Made by a program: the position numbers and the translations under genes. The notes beneath the pieces are model-generated. The model saw only the letters and a list, made by a program, of their open reading frames with translations. It searched no databases and was not told the DNA's origin. From IMG/VR virus record IMGVR_UViG_3300031705_000011, positions 1 to 45,750 of that record: a stretch of DNA of 45,750 nucleotides. One strand, given 5' to 3'. The DNA comes from a virus. Positions 4,517-15,576 of this stretch are shown here, in pieces. Numbering within the stretch: position 1 is the first letter of the stretch; each line of letters begins with the position of its first letter.

Positions 4517-4542
4517 AACTAACTTTTTCGAAATATTTTCTA

Positions 4543-4550
4543 TATTTATA
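4543..4550 (+). promoter_or_regulatory. Putative late promoter motif TATTTATA
   Basis: TATTTATA occurs 37 bp before the start of the 99-aa coiled-coil gene, in a non-coding gap and with no -33 element at the early-promoter spacing. Confidence 0.5.
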
Positions 4551-4587
4551 TATAAGAATATAACAACAAAATAAAACAAATTAAGTT

Positions 4588-7464: not shown

Positions 7465-7953
7465 ATGGCACAATTATTAGACCCAACAGAAGTAATGTTC
7501 ACATCATTCGAGCCGAAGATGTCGAACAGGTTTATTATGTATATTGAGGGGATTCCTTCATACTTAGTAAAAGCATCAGGTAGACCTGAGATAACAAACG
7601 GTAAAGTAACTATCGACCATATTAACGTAAAAAGATACGTTAAAGGTAGAAGTGAGTGGAGTGAATTAACAATTTCATTATACGACCCGGTAGTTCCTTC
7701 GGCAGCACAAGCAGCAATGGAGTGGGTAAGACTACACCATGAATCTGTAACTGGAAGAGATGGATATTCGGATTTCTATAAAAAAGATATCACATTCAAT
7801 AGTTTGGGTCCTGTTGGTGATAAAGTAGAAGAATGGACACTTAAAGGTGCATTTATCGTTTCAGCTAAATTCTCAGATATGGATTATACTGGCGAAGAAA
7901 TCGCAACAGTTGATTTAACATTATCTTACGATTACGCAATATTACAATACTAA
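7465..7953 (+). CDS. 19: Tail tube protein, gp19-like
   Basis: The product is 162 aa, the same size as T4 gp19 (163 aa). It follows the sheath gene as in T4. Typical tube features are FEPKMSNRFIMYIEGIPSYL, then VKASGRPEI, VKRYVKGRSEW, LTISLYDPVVPSAAQAAMEW and a C-terminal ATVDLTLSYDYAIL strand. These match the gp19 tube fold, a beta-sandwich that stacks as hexameric rings. Start: ATG with a GGAG site 11 bases upstream. Late motif upstream and terminator downstream suggest monocistronic expression, suited to an abundant virion protein. Confidence 0.92.
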   Translation: MAQLLDPTEVMFTSFEPKMSNRFIMYIEGIPSYLVKASGRPEITNGKVTIDHINVKRYVKGRSEWSELTISLYDPVVPSAAQAAMEWVRLHHESVTGRDGYSDFYKKDITFNSLGPVGDKVEEWTLKGAFIVSAKFSDMDYTGEEIATVDLTLSYDYAILQY

Positions 7954-7988
7954 TTCAAAATATTGAATTTTTAAATTGAATTCATAAA

Positions 7989-8020
7989 CCTCAACAGAAA
8001 TGTTGGGGTTTTTTGTTTTT
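7989..8020 (+). terminator. Rho-independent terminator after the tube gene
   Basis: An 8-bp stem CCTCAACA / TGTTGGGG (one T-G pair) closes a GAAA tetraloop and is followed by TTTTTTGTTTTT. Confidence 0.85.
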
Positions 8021-8036
8021 AATAATATTATTTTCA

Positions 8037-8044
8037 TATTTATA
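8037..8044 (+). promoter_or_regulatory. Putative late promoter motif TATTTATA before the gp26-family gene
   Basis: TATTTATA lies 17 bp past the tube terminator and 48 bp before the gp26-family start, with no -33 element. Confidence 0.5.
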
Positions 8045-8092
8045 TATAGGTAAACCTAATAAGAGTTTTAATTAAAACAAAAATGAGAAGTT

Positions 8093-8977
8093 ATGAGTAA
8101 AGAGAAATTACAAGACGACTACACTCCAAACGTATCCAATGCGGATATGGTTGAGCTCGCTAAACAGCAATATGAGCAGAAACAGGTCTCCGATTACAAA
8201 TTCCCAACGGAAGTAATTGATTTACCATCAAAAGGTTTGATTTATCCAAAAGATAATTCACTTTCTACTGGTAAAATTGAGATGAAGTATATGACAGCTA
8301 AGGAGGAGGACATTCTTACCACCCAATCATTCTTAAAAGATGGTAGTGTATTGGATAGATTGTTTCAAGCACTAATCATTAGTAATGGTGAGGGTGTTGC
8401 AGTTAAATATACTGATTTAGTAACAGGTGATAAGAACGCAATTATGATTGCTGCACGTGTTTTAGGGTATGGAAAGGATTACGCAGTGGAGATTGATGAC
8501 CCATCATCACCGGGTATTAAGCAGAGTGAAACAATTGACTTAACTCAATTTGAAAACAAAGAGTATGATGGTTCAGCTCAAGTAGAACTACATAAGAATG
8601 AATACACATTCACTCTACCAACTTCAAAGAGAACCGTTACTTATCAGGCGATGACTGAATCAAAAGAACGTAAAGTTAAGCACCAAATTGAGGCTGCTAA
8701 TAAGAAAGGTAGAAAGAATAGAGATTTAACCTCTAAAGATTTAACTATCAGACTTAAGAATATGATATTATCAATAGATGGTGAGTATGAGCAAGAAGCT
8801 ATTACTCATTTTGTAGACAACGAATTATTTGCTGTAGATTCAAAGGCTCTCAGAGGGCAAATGAATTCAGTTGTTCCAGACATCGACTTAAATTATGAAT
8901 TTACATCTGAAGAAACCGGGGAAAGGAGAGATATGCTACTGCCCATGGACGTGGGGTTTTTTTGGCCTAAGTCCTAA
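8093..8977 (+). CDS. 26: Baseplate protein of the gp26 family (zero-frame product)
   Basis: The product is 294 aa. Residues about 45-105 carry the gp26/T4 baseplate family signature: VIDLPSKGLIYP, IEMKYMTAKEEDILTTQSF, then VLDRLFQALI. The zero-frame C-terminus ends LPMDVGFFWPKS; an FFWP ending is what I associate with this family. T4 gp26 is 208 aa, so this protein is longer, with a Lys-rich stretch around 200-225. gp26 contributes to the central baseplate hub. The last codons (GGG TTT TTT TGG CCT AAG TCC TAA) overlap a downstream ORF in the +1 frame, and the context suggests some ribosomes shift into it (see next entry). Confidence 0.8.
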   Translation: MSKEKLQDDYTPNVSNADMVELAKQQYEQKQVSDYKFPTEVIDLPSKGLIYPKDNSLSTGKIEMKYMTAKEEDILTTQSFLKDGSVLDRLFQALIISNGEGVAVKYTDLVTGDKNAIMIAARVLGYGKDYAVEIDDPSSPGIKQSETIDLTQFENKEYDGSAQVELHKNEYTFTLPTSKRTVTYQAMTESKERKVKHQIEAANKKGRKNRDLTSKDLTIRLKNMILSIDGEYEQEAITHFVDNELFAVDSKALRGQMNSVVPDIDLNYEFTSEETGERRDMLLPMDVGFFWPKS

Positions 8978-9167
8978 CTACCGAAAAATATTACATTCCC
9001 AGATATTTGATTTAATCTATCATGGGAATGGTGGATTTACATTTACAGATGTATATAACCTTCCAATTTGGTCTAGAAAATTCTACATTAGTAAAATTAT
9101 AGAGTTCAAAAACGAAGAGCAGAAGCAACATGATAAGGCTAATAAAAAGGCTAATTCAAAAAGATAG
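8895..9167 (+). CDS. Out-of-frame extension of the gp26-family gene (probable +1 frameshift product)
   Basis: This ORF is in the +1 frame relative to the gp26-family gene and continues about 67 codons past a run of seven T (8957-8963) near that gene's end. The ATG at 8895 lies inside the upstream gene with no ribosome site, so independent initiation is doubtful. The unique part has YRKILHSQIFDLIYHGNGGF, FTDVYNLPIWSRKFYISKI and a charged Lys/Gln-rich tail. It looks like a genuine conserved domain, reminiscent of short ORFs next to gp26 in other T4-type phages. A +1 slip anywhere from the T run to the TAA at 8975 would give a fusion of about 360 aa. The alternative is one extra or missing base from sequencing. 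Confidence 0.6.
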   Translation: MNLHLKKPGKGEICYCPWTWGFFGLSPNYRKILHSQIFDLIYHGNGGFTFTDVYNLPIWSRKFYISKIIEFKNEEQKQHDKANKKANSKR

Positions 9168-9171
9168 CGAG

Positions 9172-9194
9172 ATACCCAACGAAATGTTGGGTAT
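9172..9194 (+). terminator. Terminator-like hairpin after the gp26 region
   Basis: A perfect 9-bp stem ATACCCAAC / GTTGGGTAT encloses loop GAAAT. The T tract after it is weak (TTCCATATTTA), so termination may be partial. Confidence 0.55.
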
Positions 9195-9199
9195 TTCCA

Positions 9200-9207
9200 T
9201 ATTTATA
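9200..9207 (+). promoter_or_regulatory. Putative late promoter motif TATTTATA before the 78-aa gene and tape measure
   Basis: TATTTATA lies just past the hairpin at 9172-9194 and 57 bp before the next start. It may drive the long run from 9265 to 18459, in which no further copy was found in intergenic DNA. Confidence 0.5.
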
Positions 9208-9264
9208 CATATGTAACTTACTAATAGTGTTATTATTAGTAACGCTATCACTAAATGGAATATT

Positions 9265-9501
9265 ATGGCAAAAATTAAACAATCACAACTTAAAGAATTA
9301 TTTACAAAAGTAGGCCTTAGTGAGGGTATTTTTGATTTATTCAATAAAAAGCGTAAGGCTTTGGATAAAAAGGTAACTGATATCAAACAAGATATTGAAG
9401 ATACAATAAAATCAGCCCCGAATGATAAAGAGAAACAACGATTAAGAGATTTACATAATGCTATTCAAAGAGCTAGAAAGCTTGGTGTTAAAATTTACTA
9501 A
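9265..9501 (+). CDS. Small basic helical protein upstream of the tape measure, unknown function
   Basis: The product is 78 aa and Lys/Arg-rich. It begins MAKIKQSQLKELFTKVGLSE with a likely helix-turn segment, then a charged helical stretch (KKRKALDKKVTDIKQDIEDT, KEKQRLRDLHNAIQRARKLG). There is no membrane segment or signal. It lies 10 bp before the tape-measure gene and is probably co-transcribed. Small proteins of this make-up occur next to tail genes in marine T4-type phages, but I cannot assign a function. Small size, basic charge and position would fit a tail assembly factor; that is inference. Confidence 0.7.
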   Translation: MAKIKQSQLKELFTKVGLSEGIFDLFNKKRKALDKKVTDIKQDIEDTIKSAPNDKEKQRLRDLHNAIQRARKLGVKIY

Positions 9502-9511
9502 AGGTTAATTT

Positions 9512-12334
9512 ATGGCTGATGATTTAAAAAACCGAAAAGAGGCACTCCAATCTGAGTATGATATAAGCCAAGAACTCCTAAAGGGGTTAAAAACTTATAA
9601 AATACTAACTAAAGATGCGTTAACTTTAAGAAACAGTCTAACTACATCTCTGATGGAGCAGAAATCTGTATCTGAAAAATTAGAAGATGTTGATACTGCT
9701 ATTGGTACATTACTAATGGAGCAAGTTGTTTCAGGTAAAGAGGTAAATAAGGAATTACTTCTTAAATTAAACCTAACTAAAGGGTATCTCGAACAATCGG
9801 TTGAGTTAGCAAAAGCTGAAGATATTCAACAATCATATTTAGATGAGCGTAATGCGGGATTGAAGAATATACTCGGAATTACCAGTGATATTGAAGATGC
9901 TGTATTAAATGGTACATTCAAAGCATTAGCTATGAATAAGGCATTTGAAAATATCGGTGAAAACGCATCCCGTATGGGAGATAGTATTCAGAGTAGCGTA
10001 AAAGATTTAGGATTATCAGGGTTCGCAGCAATGCAACTTCAAGGTAATATAGAATCCGCTCGATTTAGTATGACTGGGTTACTTTATGGCTCAGAAGCAG
10101 TAGAAGCATCAGGTAAAGCAATCGCTGAGAAGTACGGAAGTGCTTCAATGGCAACTTCTGATTTAATTGAAGGTGTAACTCAACTTTCATCATTAGGCTT
10201 AGATGCAGCGGAAGCAACCGATTTAGCATCGGTATTTAAATCAGCTGGAGTTGAGGCTACTGAAGTCAAAGGTATAATTTCAGATATAGCATCCAAAGAG
10301 GGGATATCAGCCAAAAAGGCTATGGAGGGTATGGATGGCCAGATGAGCCAATTAGTTGGTAAATCGAAGCAACAATTAGAAACCATCATCAAATCCAATG
10401 CACAATTAATTAAACAAGGTACAAATCTAAAGCAGATTGAATCTATATCTAATAATATGTTAGATATCGAAGGTAGTATGAAGGCTCAAGCTAAAGCCAG
10501 AGTGATGCTGGGTAGGGATATGAATGTAAACGCAGTTAGAAGTGCATCACTTGCATTACAGAGTGCACGAACTGATGAAGATAGAGCAGATGCTCGTAAA
10601 AGGATAAGTGCTGAAATCCTCAAGGGTGTTGGTGGTATGGCTGAATACGCTCAAATGACTATGAAGGAAAAGGATGCATCCGCAGCTGCATATGGTATGA
10701 GTACTGATGAGTTAACTACTATGATGGAGAAGAAGAAGATTGCTGATGAAATGACCGCATCATACGGAGAGCAAGCTGGATTTATGACAGCTATGATTGG
10801 GATAGGTAAGCAGGGGTTATCATTAGCAGCCGATACCGCAATTGAGATGGCTAAAATGGCCGCTAAAATGGTAGTAATGAATCTGATGCAAGGTAAAGGT
10901 ACTGGAATCGGTAATTTAAATCCATTTAAGAAGAAATCTGGTGATGGTGGTTCAATTGAAACTGAAGTGCCAGGAGCAGATGAGGTAGGTAGTACCGAAA
11001 GTGGAGGCGGATTAAAGTCTTTAGCAGAAGGATTAAAGGCAATGGGTGATGGTAAGGTATTTGCTGGAATTGGGGCAGTTGCATTAGCAGGACCTGCATT
11101 CATAATAGCATTACCTTCAATACCATTTCTATTATTTATGGGTAAGGTAAAACTAAAAGAAATTCAATCCAACTTTGAAGGATTAGCAGCGGGATTAAAC
11201 TCAATGAGTTCAACATTTATGGGGTCACTCGCAATGGCAGTTGCTGGACCAGCACTCGCAGTTGCTACGTTGGCAATTCCATTCTTACTGTTTATGGGTA
11301 AGGTAAAATTAAAAACATTAGGGTCTAACTTTTTAGAGTTAGGTATCGGACTTCAAATGATGAGTTCAACCTTTGTGGGTTCTCTTGCACTTGCTGCATT
11401 TGGAGTAGCAGCACTAATAGCAATACCATCGTTAATATTCTTAGCTGGGGTTGCTTTATTAGGAGCAGCTGGAGGAGCTGGTCTTTCTGCGTTAGGAGTT
11501 GGATTAGCCGCATTTGGAGCAACAGCACCACTTGCGATAATCGGAATCGGATTAATCGCAGCATTGGGGTTAGCAATGATTCCGTTCGCAGTTGCATTAT
11601 TGATTGTAACACCCGCAATTGAGGCATTTGGAAATATAATCATCGGTGTATTGGGGGCAATTCCACCAATCATCGCAGCAGTAGCTGATGGGTTTGTTAC
11701 AATGTTTTCAGCACTTACACCTGAGGCAATATTAGGTATGTTGGCATTAGGACCGGCATTAATGTTAGCTGGAGTTGGTATGGTGGCATTCGCAGTTGGA
11801 ATGGCAGCTGCATCGGCAATAGGGTTCTTCGGTGGTGGTATTATGGATGATATTGGAGCATTATCATTAATGGCTCCGGGATTATCTATAACTGCACAGG
11901 CGTTAGGTGATATAACAACGAATATGGGTGGATTAGGTTCAGCTCTACAAAATATAGATAGTATGATAGACCCATTACTACGATTATCATCCGTAACTGG
12001 TGATTTGGCAAGTGGGTTATACGCAGTAGCCGGTGGATTAGCAGCGTTCTCATTCGCAGGTCTATTAGCATCACCTGTTATTGCAGGATTAAGTATGTTA
12101 GGGGCAGTTGCTCCGGCATTAGAGAGTTTAGGTGAATTCTTTGGAATGGGTGGTAACTCAGATGAATCGACATCCACAGATAAATCAGCTGGTGGGAGTT
12201 CATCATCAGCATTATTAGAAGAATTAAAAGGATTACGTTCAGATATTCAATCCCAACCGATACTTATTAATGTAGATGGGAAAGTGGTATCTCGTATAAC
12301 GAGAGTACAACGTCAGCAGGCGAGTAGTAAATAA
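9512..12334 (+). CDS. Tail tape-measure protein
   Basis: The product is 940 aa. The N-terminal third is charged and helical (about residues 1-110). The centre (about 180-460) is Ala/Ser-rich helix. Residues about 510-790 hold a series of long hydrophobic segments rich in Gly, Ala, Ile and Leu (for example ALLGAAGGAGLSALGVGLAA and IIIGVLGAIPPIIAAVADGF). The C-terminal 60 residues are Ser-rich and then charged. Long helical ends with hydrophobic membrane-type segments are typical of tape-measure proteins, which set tail length and pass into the host envelope. T4's equivalent, gp29, is 590 aa, so the tail may be longer; sequence similarity to gp29 was not evident. The 274-codon minus-strand ORF inside it (11353-12177) is a composition shadow. 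Confidence 0.8.
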   Translation: MADDLKNRKEALQSEYDISQELLKGLKTYKILTKDALTLRNSLTTSLMEQKSVSEKLEDVDTAIGTLLMEQVVSGKEVNKELLLKLNLTKGYLEQSVELAKAEDIQQSYLDERNAGLKNILGITSDIEDAVLNGTFKALAMNKAFENIGENASRMGDSIQSSVKDLGLSGFAAMQLQGNIESARFSMTGLLYGSEAVEASGKAIAEKYGSASMATSDLIEGVTQLSSLGLDAAEATDLASVFKSAGVEATEVKGIISDIASKEGISAKKAMEGMDGQMSQLVGKSKQQLETIIKSNAQLIKQGTNLKQIESISNNMLDIEGSMKAQAKARVMLGRDMNVNAVRSASLALQSARTDEDRADARKRISAEILKGVGGMAEYAQMTMKEKDASAAAYGMSTDELTTMMEKKKIADEMTASYGEQAGFMTAMIGIGKQGLSLAADTAIEMAKMAAKMVVMNLMQGKGTGIGNLNPFKKKSGDGGSIETEVPGADEVGSTESGGGLKSLAEGLKAMGDGKVFAGIGAVALAGPAFIIALPSIPFLLFMGKVKLKEIQSNFEGLAAGLNSMSSTFMGSLAMAVAGPALAVATLAIPFLLFMGKVKLKTLGSNFLELGIGLQMMSSTFVGSLALAAFGVAALIAIPSLIFLAGVALLGAAGGAGLSALGVGLAAFGATAPLAIIGIGLIAALGLAMIPFAVALLIVTPAIEAFGNIIIGVLGAIPPIIAAVADGFVTMFSALTPEAILGMLALGPALMLAGVGMVAFAVGMAAASAIGFFGGGIMDDIGALSLMAPGLSITAQALGDITTNMGGLGSALQNIDSMIDPLLRLSSVTGDLASGLYAVAGGLAAFSFAGLLASPVIAGLSMLGAVAPALESLGEFFGMGGNSDESTSTDKSAGGSSSSALLEELKGLRSDIQSQPILINVDGKVVSRITRVQRQQASSK

Positions 12335-12369: not shown

Positions 12370-15300
12370 ATGGCATTAAAAGACTTAAAATCGATATTAT
12401 CCGACTTTAGGATACCGAAGAAAACACCTTTGGTTGATAAACCTAACGTTGAGGTTAATAAAGGTGGTAATCAACGACCGCTTGGTGGGATGTTAGAATC
12501 TACTCCTAAAGTTGCTATTGCAAAAAACACACCGAATAAATCGGGTGTAGATACTACTCCAATTAAACAAGGTGATAAATTCAAAGGTGAAACTACAGTT
12601 ATACCATTCGTTACAACTGATAAATTTAAAGGTGAAACAACACCAACTAAATCAGATAGCAAATCACAATTCTTAGGTGAAACAACACCAACTCCTATGA
12701 CTAATTTAGAGAAGTTCTTAGGTGAAACTAATCCTACTAAAATGGATACCTCTGAGAAGTTCTTAGGTGAAACGACTCCAACTGAATCTAATAAAGAATC
12801 TAAGTTTTTAGGAGAAACATCTACTAAGCCAATGAGTTTAGAAGAGCGTTACTTAGGTGAAACTAATCCTACTAAATCCGATATTAGTTCAAAGTTTTTA
12901 GGAGAAACAACTCCAATTGAATCTAATAAAGAATCTAAGTTTTTAGGAGAAACATCCACTAAACCAATGGGGTTAGAGGAACGTTACTTAGGGGAAACAA
13001 CTCCAATTGAATCTAACCGAGATTCAAAGTTCTTAGGTGAAACTAATACTAAGCCAATGAACTTAGATGGTCGTTACTTAGGTGAAACGACTCCCAATTC
13101 CAAAAACAATAAATCTAACGGAATCTTAAAAGAAACGTTTTTAGGAGAAACAACTCCAATTGAATCTAATAAAGAATCTAAGTTTTTAGGAGAAACAACT
13201 CCGATTGAATCTAACAGAGAATCTAAATTCTTAGGTGAAACTAATCCAATTGAATCTAATAGAAGCTCAAAGTTCTTAGGTGAAACTAATCCAATTGAAT
13301 CTAATAGAAGCTCAAAGTTCTTAGGTGAAACGACACCAACGGTTGCTGCAATTACATCTAAATTCTTAGGTGAAACAAACACACCATCATTTACATTCAA
13401 TCCCCGTCATACCGATAATGCTAGAACACCATCGGCTGTTAACTTCATTGTAGATAAACATGCGTCTGGGTTCACTCTAAATCAAATACATAAATCACCA
13501 ACTCGCTTTAAGGGTGTAGCTGGTACTAAATTTGATGGTACATCATCACTATATGGTGAATTGGGTAGTACTAACTTCTTTCCCGATACGAACGCTGTTG
13601 GATTTACATATGAGCAGAATAGTAAGGTAACTAATTTATTTCATAGAGCACCATCTAAATTCTTAGGAGTGGATTCTGCAGGAGAAAATTGGGATAGTAC
13701 ATCATCTACATTAAGTAATCATACATTACCAAACAATTCACTATCATTCAGTACTGGGTATAAACAGTTCAAATCCAAAACAAAAAGTGGAGCAGTTCAG
13801 ACATATACACCTGATAGTGTAAATTATGAATCATCATACAATAGTATCGGTAATACGATGCAACAACGACATTCACCATCTTTCTTAGATGAAATGTACG
13901 ATAAGTATAATTTAAGAGAAGATGCACATAACACAGGGTTAACATTATTTAAACACCCATTAATCCTTAGAGGTATTCAGAGAAAGGGTACGAAGGGTAA
14001 CGAACCTCAGAATTGGGGAATCGCTGGTATTAATTTTGATGATGGTCTTATAAGAGGTGGTGTAATAACCTCAACTGTAAGAGCAGCAATTGATGCTGTG
14101 AGAATTGGTAAATGGATGGCATCTATTAATGGTGTATTATTCGGAATTAAACAATTCGGATTACAGCAATCCAATCCAAATGTAGAATCATTAGGTCCTA
14201 TTAGAAAAACAAAGATATGGACTCCTATAAATACATTAGCATCTGTATTAGGTCAACACATAGGGTTTCACCCAAATCGACATGGTATAACCCCGTTTGA
14301 TTTAAACGATGGTTCATATGAATCAGTACAAAAGGCGAAGGCTATATTCCATAAAGGTTCTTTATCGGATACGGCATTAATAAGTCCGGGGACTGGTAAC
14401 CGATTAGTTCAGTTACACAATGAATCATTTGGTGATAATCCTACAAAAAAAGGAATGCCGTTCACAACCTTATTGGGTAAAGGTGGACCAAATTCATTAT
14501 ATGGACTAATACCAAATGGTATGGTGCCGACGCGAGTGGTAACAACATCACCTGATATGACCAATGGGATGGGTGTAGCAACACCAAAAATTGGAACTGA
14601 TTCTAAAAATACATATGGTGATGCTTGGCTTGATTTAACCGATGATGATAAAAAGGAGTTTGGGGTAGCCGAACCACAGCGATTAGTTTCATCGCCAGTA
14701 GGTGGTGCATCCGATTATACTGATGTTCGTGGTAGACATAAGCAAGATGTTATAGGTGATGGTACGATTCCAGCTGCTGAAGTAATTAAAGATTATGAAA
14801 CAATTTCATATGGTGATATTCCAACTCGAATAGCTGGTGATGCTACAATTAACGATTTCAGAGGTAATCTTACCAATGATAATTCACAAGCACTCTTCAA
14901 TTCTGAGAATTATACTGATAAAAATCTAAGGGACCGTGTTAATTTCGGAACTCCGGGTCTTTTAGGTCCATTGGAAAACCGAACTGAGCATTGGAAAACG
15001 CAGGCACATTCCGGTAACTATGGTAGGTTTGATTTAATACAAGCAAAAACGCCCAACTCACAAATAGAAAATGATTTAGTTCATTGTTATTTCAAAACCG
15101 GTGAAGAGATATTACAATTTAGAGGAGCTGTTAATGGTATTACTGATACATTCTCACCTTCTTGGGATTCGTATAAATATAATGGTAGAGCTGATAATGC
15201 ATACGCATATAAATCATTCGAACGTAGTGTATCGTTCAATATACAAGTATATGCTACTTCCCGAATTGAGATGAAACCTATATATACGAAATTAAGTAAG

Positions 15301-15576
15301 TTAGCATCATTAACGATGCCAGTTTATGGTGGAAGTGCTGGGTATAATGGTATGATAACAAAATTCACATTGGGTACTTTATTCAAAGATGAGCTAGTAT
15401 TCATAGAATCGCTATCATACTCAATGTCAGATGAAACTCCTTGGGATATATCCAAACAAGGTGATGCTGAATATATCGGTGAATTACCAATGGGTATTGA
15501 GGTTTCAGTTGGATTAAAGGTGTTAGGTAAAAGTAAGCCGGCATATGGTGGAACTGAAATTTACTCTAACGTATAA
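12370..15576 (+). CDS. Large baseplate/tail-tube-associated structural protein with FLGET repeats
   Basis: The product is 1068 aa in three parts. Residues about 70-345 are eighteen degenerate 15-residue repeats with core (K/R)(F/Y)LGET. Residues about 345-930 are an unassigned region with looser echoes of the repeat (TRFKGVAGTKF, SKFLGVDS). The C-terminus (about 930-1068) has QFRGAVNGITDTFSPSWDSY, FNIQVYATSRIEMKPIYTKL, ASLTMPVYGGSAGYNGMITK and MSDETPWDISKQG. This resembles the tube-like domain of baseplate proteins that nucleate the tail tube (gp48/gp54 type) in marine T4-type phages. It lies between the tape measure and a LysM/gp53-like gene, which supports a baseplate location. The specific T4 equivalent is uncertain. 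Confidence 0.72.
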   Translation: MALKDLKSILSDFRIPKKTPLVDKPNVEVNKGGNQRPLGGMLESTPKVAIAKNTPNKSGVDTTPIKQGDKFKGETTVIPFVTTDKFKGETTPTKSDSKSQFLGETTPTPMTNLEKFLGETNPTKMDTSEKFLGETTPTESNKESKFLGETSTKPMSLEERYLGETNPTKSDISSKFLGETTPIESNKESKFLGETSTKPMGLEERYLGETTPIESNRDSKFLGETNTKPMNLDGRYLGETTPNSKNNKSNGILKETFLGETTPIESNKESKFLGETTPIESNRESKFLGETNPIESNRSSKFLGETNPIESNRSSKFLGETTPTVAAITSKFLGETNTPSFTFNPRHTDNARTPSAVNFIVDKHASGFTLNQIHKSPTRFKGVAGTKFDGTSSLYGELGSTNFFPDTNAVGFTYEQNSKVTNLFHRAPSKFLGVDSAGENWDSTSSTLSNHTLPNNSLSFSTGYKQFKSKTKSGAVQTYTPDSVNYESSYNSIGNTMQQRHSPSFLDEMYDKYNLREDAHNTGLTLFKHPLILRGIQRKGTKGNEPQNWGIAGINFDDGLIRGGVITSTVRAAIDAVRIGKWMASINGVLFGIKQFGLQQSNPNVESLGPIRKTKIWTPINTLASVLGQHIGFHPNRHGITPFDLNDGSYESVQKAKAIFHKGSLSDTALISPGTGNRLVQLHNESFGDNPTKKGMPFTTLLGKGGPNSLYGLIPNGMVPTRVVTTSPDMTNGMGVATPKIGTDSKNTYGDAWLDLTDDDKKEFGVAEPQRLVSSPVGGASDYTDVRGRHKQDVIGDGTIPAAEVIKDYETISYGDIPTRIAGDATINDFRGNLTNDNSQALFNSENYTDKNLRDRVNFGTPGLLGPLENRTEHWKTQAHSGNYGRFDLIQAKTPNSQIENDLVHCYFKTGEEILQFRGAVNGITDTFSPSWDSYKYNGRADNAYAYKSFERSVSFNIQVYATSRIEMKPIYTKLSKLASLTMPVYGGSAGYNGMITKFTLGTLFKDELVFIESLSYSMSDETPWDISKQGDAEYIGELPMGIEVSVGLKVLGKSKPAYGGTEIYSNV
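12577..13404 (+). repeat. Eighteen 45-bp (15-residue) coding repeats, core FLGET
   Basis: Successive units have the form (K/R)(F/Y)(L/K)GET followed by nine variable positions such as TPIESNKES, NPTKSDISS and STKPMSLEE. Only one unit is longer (21 residues, near 13090-13140). Nucleotide identity is high between some neighbours (13234-13278 and 13279-13323 are almost identical) and lower elsewhere. That suggests both old and recent duplications. Confidence 0.9.

Follow-up and report, generated by a model that had tools for sequence, protein, structure and literature searches.

ORF1, the overlapping +1 frame and their neighbours

The data analysed here are a single virus record of 45,750 bases, which we call the window. 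Its plus strand carries ORF1 (8093-8977), which runs from ATG 8093 to a TAA and encodes 294 amino acids, the proposed short tail assembly chaperone (TAC-N). The 3' end of ORF1 reads GAC GTG GGG TTT TTT TGG CCT AAG TCC TAA, with GGG at 8954 and the stop codon at 8975-8977. The +1 frame of this region reads GGT TTT TTT GGC CTA AGT CCT AAC TAC CGA and onwards, and remains open until a TAG at 9165-9167. A first-pass annotation, made from the sequence of the window, had described this end of ORF1 and a +1 frame open to 9167, and we found both the sequence and the coordinates to be correct. The +1 frame, referred to here as ORF2, extends 67 codons past the putative slip and 63 past the zero-frame stop; an open stretch of 63 codons has a chance probability of about 0.7% under an order-1 Markov model of the window.

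The candidate shift site, TTT TTT TGG (8957-8965, plus strand), includes a run of seven T's (8957-8963) and is followed by a CCT codon (8966-8968). The domain encoded in the +1 frame, 67 amino acids and a stop, occupies 8964-9167 on the same strand and would be the C-terminal part of a 357-residue long form that begins with ORF1. Upstream of the site, within ORF1, the +1 frame contains a TAA at 8889 and its sole start codon, ATG 8895, 60 nt before the site (8889-8897 for the two together).

ORF1 and ORF2 lie between two tail genes on the plus strand. Upstream is the tail tube gene (7465-7953), which matches phrog_4542 (3.7e-24) and PF06841 (2.9e-6) and whose product is 50% identical to the tube protein of Flavobacterium phage immuto. 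Downstream is the tape measure gene (9512-12334), the product of which matches the annotated immuto tape measure protein (BLASTP, 1e-64). The order of tube, ORF1/2 and tape measure is the same in the window, immuto, Bacillus phage SP-15 and Listeria phage LIS04, and ORF1/2 stands where lambda has its tail assembly chaperones G/GT and P2 has E/E+E'. The unit is flanked on both sides by terminator-like hairpins on the plus strand, one before ORF1 (7986-8011) and one after the +1 frame (9169-9197), the latter with 13 pairs and a stem that starts 2 bases past the +1-frame stop.

We also noted several other features of the window. A 78-amino-acid ORF without a family match lies between ORF2 and the tape measure gene (9265-9501, plus strand), and a small ORF is annotated at the matching place in Microcystis phage Mel-JY01. 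Repeats of ATATTTATAYATA stand upstream of genes at 4542-4554, 8036-8048 and 9199-9211 and resemble a phage late promoter motif; their number, with one mismatch allowed, was reached by 8 of 100 shuffles. Elsewhere on the plus strand, 76-1953 encodes a long protein of collagen-like Gly-X-Y repeats that is probably a tail fibre, and 12370-15576 encodes a 1068-amino-acid protein with many KFLGETTP-type repeats in its first third.

Identity of ORF1 and of the downstream domain

ORF1 is a gp26/gp51-type protein (PHROG150/PF12322). It matched phrog_150, annotated as 'baseplate hub', with an E value of 9.8e-8 (3.3e-8 for the joined protein), and among 86 relatives of ORF1 we found matches to phrog_150 in 82 and to PF12322 (T4_baseplate) in 52, the best of the latter at 2.4e-21. 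The window's own ORF1 was below the PF12322 cut-off in the Pfam profile search, and its Pfam hits to ShlB, DUF7862 and MBG were rejected as sub-threshold noise. ORF1 and ORF2 were folded apart with AlphaFold2. Foldseek searches with the ORF1 model (pLDDT 85.8) retrieved the SP-15 baseplate hub (2.4e-17) and several entries named 'baseplate hub assembly protein, bacteriophage T4-like' (2.6e-15 to 4.8e-10). The ORF2 model consisted of three helices (pLDDT 91.4).

PF12322 spans T4 gp26 as well as residues 1-201 of gp51, so that gp51 can be regarded as a gp26-like part with an extension. Members of the ORF2 family gave weak matches to phrog_634, the T4 gp51 family (25 of 95, best E value 0.0024), and to DUF6760 (28 of 95), both far commoner than any other match among the 95. 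The match of the window's ORF2 to phrog_634 fell at profile positions 71-119, which correspond to the gp51 C terminus, and T4 gp51 itself matched this family with residues 147-246. Direct profile comparison of ORF2 with the gp51 C terminus was weak (hhalign E value 0.02, probability about 2%), and hhalign gave no significant similarity between the joined family and small alignments of gp26 and of gp51. At the level of sequence, ORF2 appears to resemble, weakly, the extension by which T4 gp51 exceeds gp26. Sequence searches yielded no convincing relatives in the PDB, the PDB fold comparison of ORF2 reached only Z 3.1, the viral fold search with ORF2 returned no E value below 0.03 and the plasmid search returned no match. 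The best of the 28 weak matches to DUF6760 (PF20546) was 1.8e-5. DUF6760 occurs in contractile injection gene clusters, and those that contain it may encode a related pair of short and long chaperones.

Conservation of the frame relation and the position of the frame change

A first scan of viral contigs yielded 80 loci with 51-86% identity to ORF1, and all 79 of those that reached a stop carried a homologous domain of 62-72 codons in the +1 frame. The set was enlarged by further scans using an alignment and distant members, and a profile search in all frames placed the domain in the +1 frame at 276 loci and in the -1 frame at 7, with no hit at 2 and 5 cut off. Removal of identical contexts left 203 distinct loci, which were collected via homologous seeds and are not independent of each other. 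The domain is in the +1 frame at 196 of them and in the -1 frame at 5, and the profile gave no hit at 2. Of this pair, L113 has the same T7 site and is +1 on visual inspection, and L277 is apparently -1. The frame change is thus conserved in the comparison across related phages that the first-pass annotation had proposed. The +1 relation persisted at joined-protein identities as low as about 35% and was present in isolate phages of Flavobacterium (immuto, site TTT CTT TGG), Microcystis (Mel-JY01, TTT TTT TGG), Bacillus (SP-15, TTT TTT CAC), Streptococcus (GXN1, TTC TTT CGT), Listeria (LIS04, TTT TTT AGT) and Rhodothermus (RM378, TTT TTT TGG).

The downstream +1 frame is under strong purifying selection. 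Its dN/dS was 0.01 against the nearest relative of the window (L001), about 0.04 against L011 and 0.08 as the median of many pairs; the other two frames of the region gave values of 1.5 and 2.2 and contained many stops.

At every one of the 196 loci with the +1 relation, the same Phe-[Phe/Leu] pair contains an in-frame TTT whose next base is T or C. The site is TTT TTT TGG at 148 of them, TTT CTT TGG at 31, TTC TTT TGG at 9 and TTT CTA TGG at 3, with five further variants found at one locus each. Synonymous changes counted on an ORF1 tree came to 2, 0 and 2 at the Phe, Phe and Pro codons of the site, compared with a median of 26 over 41 two-fold columns elsewhere. These three are the least variable of 100 conserved degenerate columns, the next lowest having at least 16 changes. 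The second Phe codon was TTT in 160 of 160 cases, whereas TTC accounted for 14-34% at other conserved Phe columns; the Pro codon was CCT in 188 of 195, its 2 synonymous changes comparing with 42-61 at other Pro columns. The +1-frame codon that overlaps CCT (CTN) encoded Leu in 183 of 191, and the +1-frame residues directly past the slip are typically G-L-T-P-E-Y-R. Because CCT is conserved in a way that keeps the +1-frame Leu, the +1 frame appears to be in use already before the zero-frame stop.

The frame upstream of the site is also informative. L001 carries a +1-frame TAG that finishes 2 bases short of the T-run, and from this TAG through the conserved domain the frame contains neither ATG nor GTG nor TTG; the domain of this relative is therefore reachable only by a frame change. 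A +1-frame stop lies at most 4 codons from the site at 55 loci. Together, the upstream +1 stops and the constrained +1-frame Leu past the slip indicate that the frame must change on the two Phe codons.

Several other accounts of the two frames were weighed against these observations. If the window truly had six T's, ORF1 and ORF2 would be one frame, and the apparent frame change would reflect a sequencing error or a broken gene; the homopolymer invites this reading and nothing more does. Sequencing or assembly error is excluded because the frame relation holds in relatives from independent metagenomes and in isolate genomes, several of which have no T7 run. It is very unlikely that ORF2 is a separate gene, coupled to ORF1 and with a start of its own. 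The window does have a +1-frame ATG at 8895, and two divergent relatives (L254 and L259) have an ATG just past the ORF1 stop. However, at 133 of the 196 loci the stretch from the upstream +1 stop to the site contains no ATG, and at 51 (L001 and 50 others) ATG, GTG and TTG are all absent between that stop and a point 18 codons beyond the site; moreover, the conservation of the T-run and of CCT far exceeds what an internal start would need. ATG 8895 is not conserved and is not the source of ORF2, which accords with the first-pass view that ORF2 lacks a credible start, and an independent start was rejected for the family. The first-pass annotation had placed the slip either on the T-run or at the stop context TCC TAA C. 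A change at the stop codon, as in prfB or Listeria phage PSA, could draw on the TCC before the stop in the window and on the known +1 shifts at a Pro codon before the stop in Listeria phages (PMC5009743). Against this, neither the identity nor the position of the zero-frame stop is conserved: the codon before it is of 29 kinds, each of the three stops occurs and the spacing from the site ranges from 3 to 10 codons, and the constrained +1-frame Leu stands upstream of it. We therefore rejected the stop context, a highly improbable position for the change, and on comparison of these loci the predicted slip site is UUU_Y (UUU_UGG in the window), not the stop codon.

The remaining two accounts keep the T-run and differ in what happens on it. 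RNA polymerase slippage on the seven T's would yield a portion of mRNA with six U's and a single frame, and the window and most relatives do have the T7 run. Seven T's are, however, a short run for transcript slippage in bacteria, and at least about 35 loci with the +1 relation have a broken run (TTT CTT TGG, TTT CTA TGG, TTT CTA TTC or TTC TTT CGT) with the frame relation kept; we consider such slippage very unlikely. Just as unlikely is a -2 frameshift, which would give FFFGL instead of FFGL at the junction. T7 permits re-pairing two bases back, but no good -2 pairing is available on TTT CTA, TTC TTT TGG or TTC TTT CGT, unless the mechanism differs between clades. TTT CTA TGG, TTT CTA TTC and TTC TTT CGT lack a long homopolymer, and the only clean re-pairing open to them is in the +1 direction (UUU to UUC); a +1 shift is for this reason preferred over both alternatives. 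That the change is ribosomal and +1 in direction, and how efficient it would be, we infer from these comparisons.

A few members of the family depart from the +1 arrangement. L254 (TTC TTG) and L259 (TTC CTT) have no UUU_Y, and the domain lies in another frame, where an ATG a few bases past the ORF1 stop opens it as a separate gene (L254, 4714-4730; L259, 3932-3945). These two loci seem to form a natural control, in which UUU_Y has been lost and the domain has an ATG of its own. In L086, L264 and L266 the domain is in the -1 frame, with T TTT TTC over the same Phe-Phe codons (-1 by inspection), and Agrobacterium phage Atu_ph07 (L298, 3270-3290) has CAT TTT TTC and an open -1 frame. The -1 frame of these exceptions carries ATG codons, in L264 with GGAG upstream, and a separate start instead of a -1 shift is possible in these cases. 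The sequences of these distant relatives suggest that the direction of frameshifting has switched within the family.

Proposed frameshifting and comparison with known chaperones

Comparative genomics strongly supports the +1 programmed frameshift that the first-pass annotation had called probable, and the conserved +1 site is real, with a long tail assembly chaperone as its very probable product. In the mechanism we propose, most ribosomes would terminate at the stop codon of ORF1, yielding the short gp26-like form. A minority would slip by +1 at the Phe-Phe codons TTT TTT (8957-8962): with the next codon, UGG, waiting, the P-site tRNA-Phe would move from UUU to the overlapping UUU, in place of which some relatives have UUC, and pair anew. 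Translation would then continue as GGC CTA AGT CCT and onwards for 67 codons, giving a gp51-like long form with the three-helix domain at its C terminus. We put the probability that one gene gives rise in this way to a short gp26-like and a long gp51-like tail assembly chaperone at about 0.88. If the two forms act as lambda gpG and gpGT do, the short one would coat the tape measure protein, the rare long one would recruit tail tube subunits through its additional domain and both would leave before the virion is completed; it is from this analogy that the chaperone roles of the two forms are inferred.

No conserved downstream RNA structure was found in six tests (z -1.26 to 1.5). A conserved Shine-Dalgarno-like stimulator was likewise not found, Shine-Dalgarno-like sequence being present at 55 of the 196 loci, and an upstream Shine-Dalgarno element as in RF2 was rejected, since GGG precedes the site at only 28 of 196. 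The window sequence GTG GGG TTT TTT TGG C resembles the RF2 site, AGG GGG UAU CUU UGA C. The RF2 shift depends on an A-site stop codon and on an internal Shine-Dalgarno sequence, whereas we found no conserved stimulator at the UUU_Y site. The P-site tRNA in prfB (RF2) and influenza PA-X re-pairs by +1 on CUU_U or UUU_C, and the PA-X sequence UCC UUU CGU C is close to UUC UUU CGU C of Streptococcus phage GXN1.

Like lambda gpG/gpGT, ORF1/2 lies between the tail tube and tape measure genes, with a short and an extended form and recoding near the 3' end; the lambda shift is -1 on a different sequence, whereas here it would be +1 on UUU_Y. We know of no sequence relation between gpG/gpGT and the ORF1/2 proteins. 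The first-pass annotation had drawn the lambda comparison with the reservation that slip-made forms were familiar from tail assembly chaperones and not from gp26-type genes; with the gene in the chaperone position, the comparison is apter than that reservation allowed. P2, a phage with a contractile tail, makes gpE and gpE+E' by a -1 chaperone frameshift on T TTT TTG just upstream of the tape measure gene. The window shares with P2 the contractile tail type, the place just upstream of the tape measure gene and a T-rich site; it differs in direction, as its downstream frame is +1. The P2 work is cited in PMC12859696. The lambda G/GT frameshift is described in a review that also covers the tail chaperone of the haloarchaeal myovirus HSTV-2, where the shift is very likely +1 (PMC5009743). 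HSTV-2 is thus similar in having a proposed +1 shift in a myovirus tail assembly chaperone, and dissimilar in having an archaeal host. The tail chaperone of Vandenendeviridae (phage Adele) involves a -1 shift on GTTTTT (PMC12846349); it resembles the present case in its contractile tail and in a conserved T-rich site found by comparison, and differs in direction.

The T4 gp26 and gp51 proteins, encoded by two genes, have been identified as the tail assembly chaperones of T4 (Vladimirov et al. 2022, PMID 34826709, as cited in PMC10885494 and PMC12846349), and some T4-like phages have a short gene and a longer fusion gene without frameshifting (PMC10885494, citing Vladimirov et al. 2022). ORF1 belongs to the same family (PF12322, with phrog_150 in relatives), and in both systems there is a short form and a longer one, whose C-terminal extension in T4 weakly resembles ORF2. 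By contrast, the two T4 genes are on opposite strands and away from the tube gene, whereas here one gene with a frame change adjoins the tube and tape measure genes. Because ORF1/2 is in the chaperone position and T4 gp26 and gp51 are chaperones, a frameshift in a gp26-type gene is to be expected in kind. We found no description of a +1 frameshift in gp26-type genes in the literature searched, in which Vladimirov et al. 2022 was represented by the papers that cite it.

Chaperones made by frameshifting are characteristic of long-tailed phages, among which the model contractile phage T4 looked exceptional in having two separate genes. In about 200 distinct sequences, isolates included, proteins of the gp26/gp51 family are very probably made by +1 frameshifting, and the UUU_Y site offers a route for the origin of the gp26/gp51 pair. 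A wider reading, to which we give about even odds, is that the same Phe-Phe pair of this T4-type contractile-tail chaperone family is recoded in both directions, +1 on UUU_Y in most clades and -1 on U UUU UUC in L086, L264, L266 and Atu_ph07, with a separate start in L254 and L259 and a gene pair in T4. What is selected would then be the presence of both forms, short and long, the decoding mechanism would be interchangeable and one-gene frameshifting might be ancestral to the T4 pair. The UUU_Y site would also add a well-conserved natural bacterial +1 site that makes no use of a stop codon, and the isolates SP-15, LIS04 and immuto make the frameshift reading directly testable. The same reading corrects annotations that miss the long form or call ORF2 a separate hypothetical gene. 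In the public annotations of five loci (L082, L083, L087, L296 and L297), the domain is omitted, shortened or given as a separate hypothetical protein.
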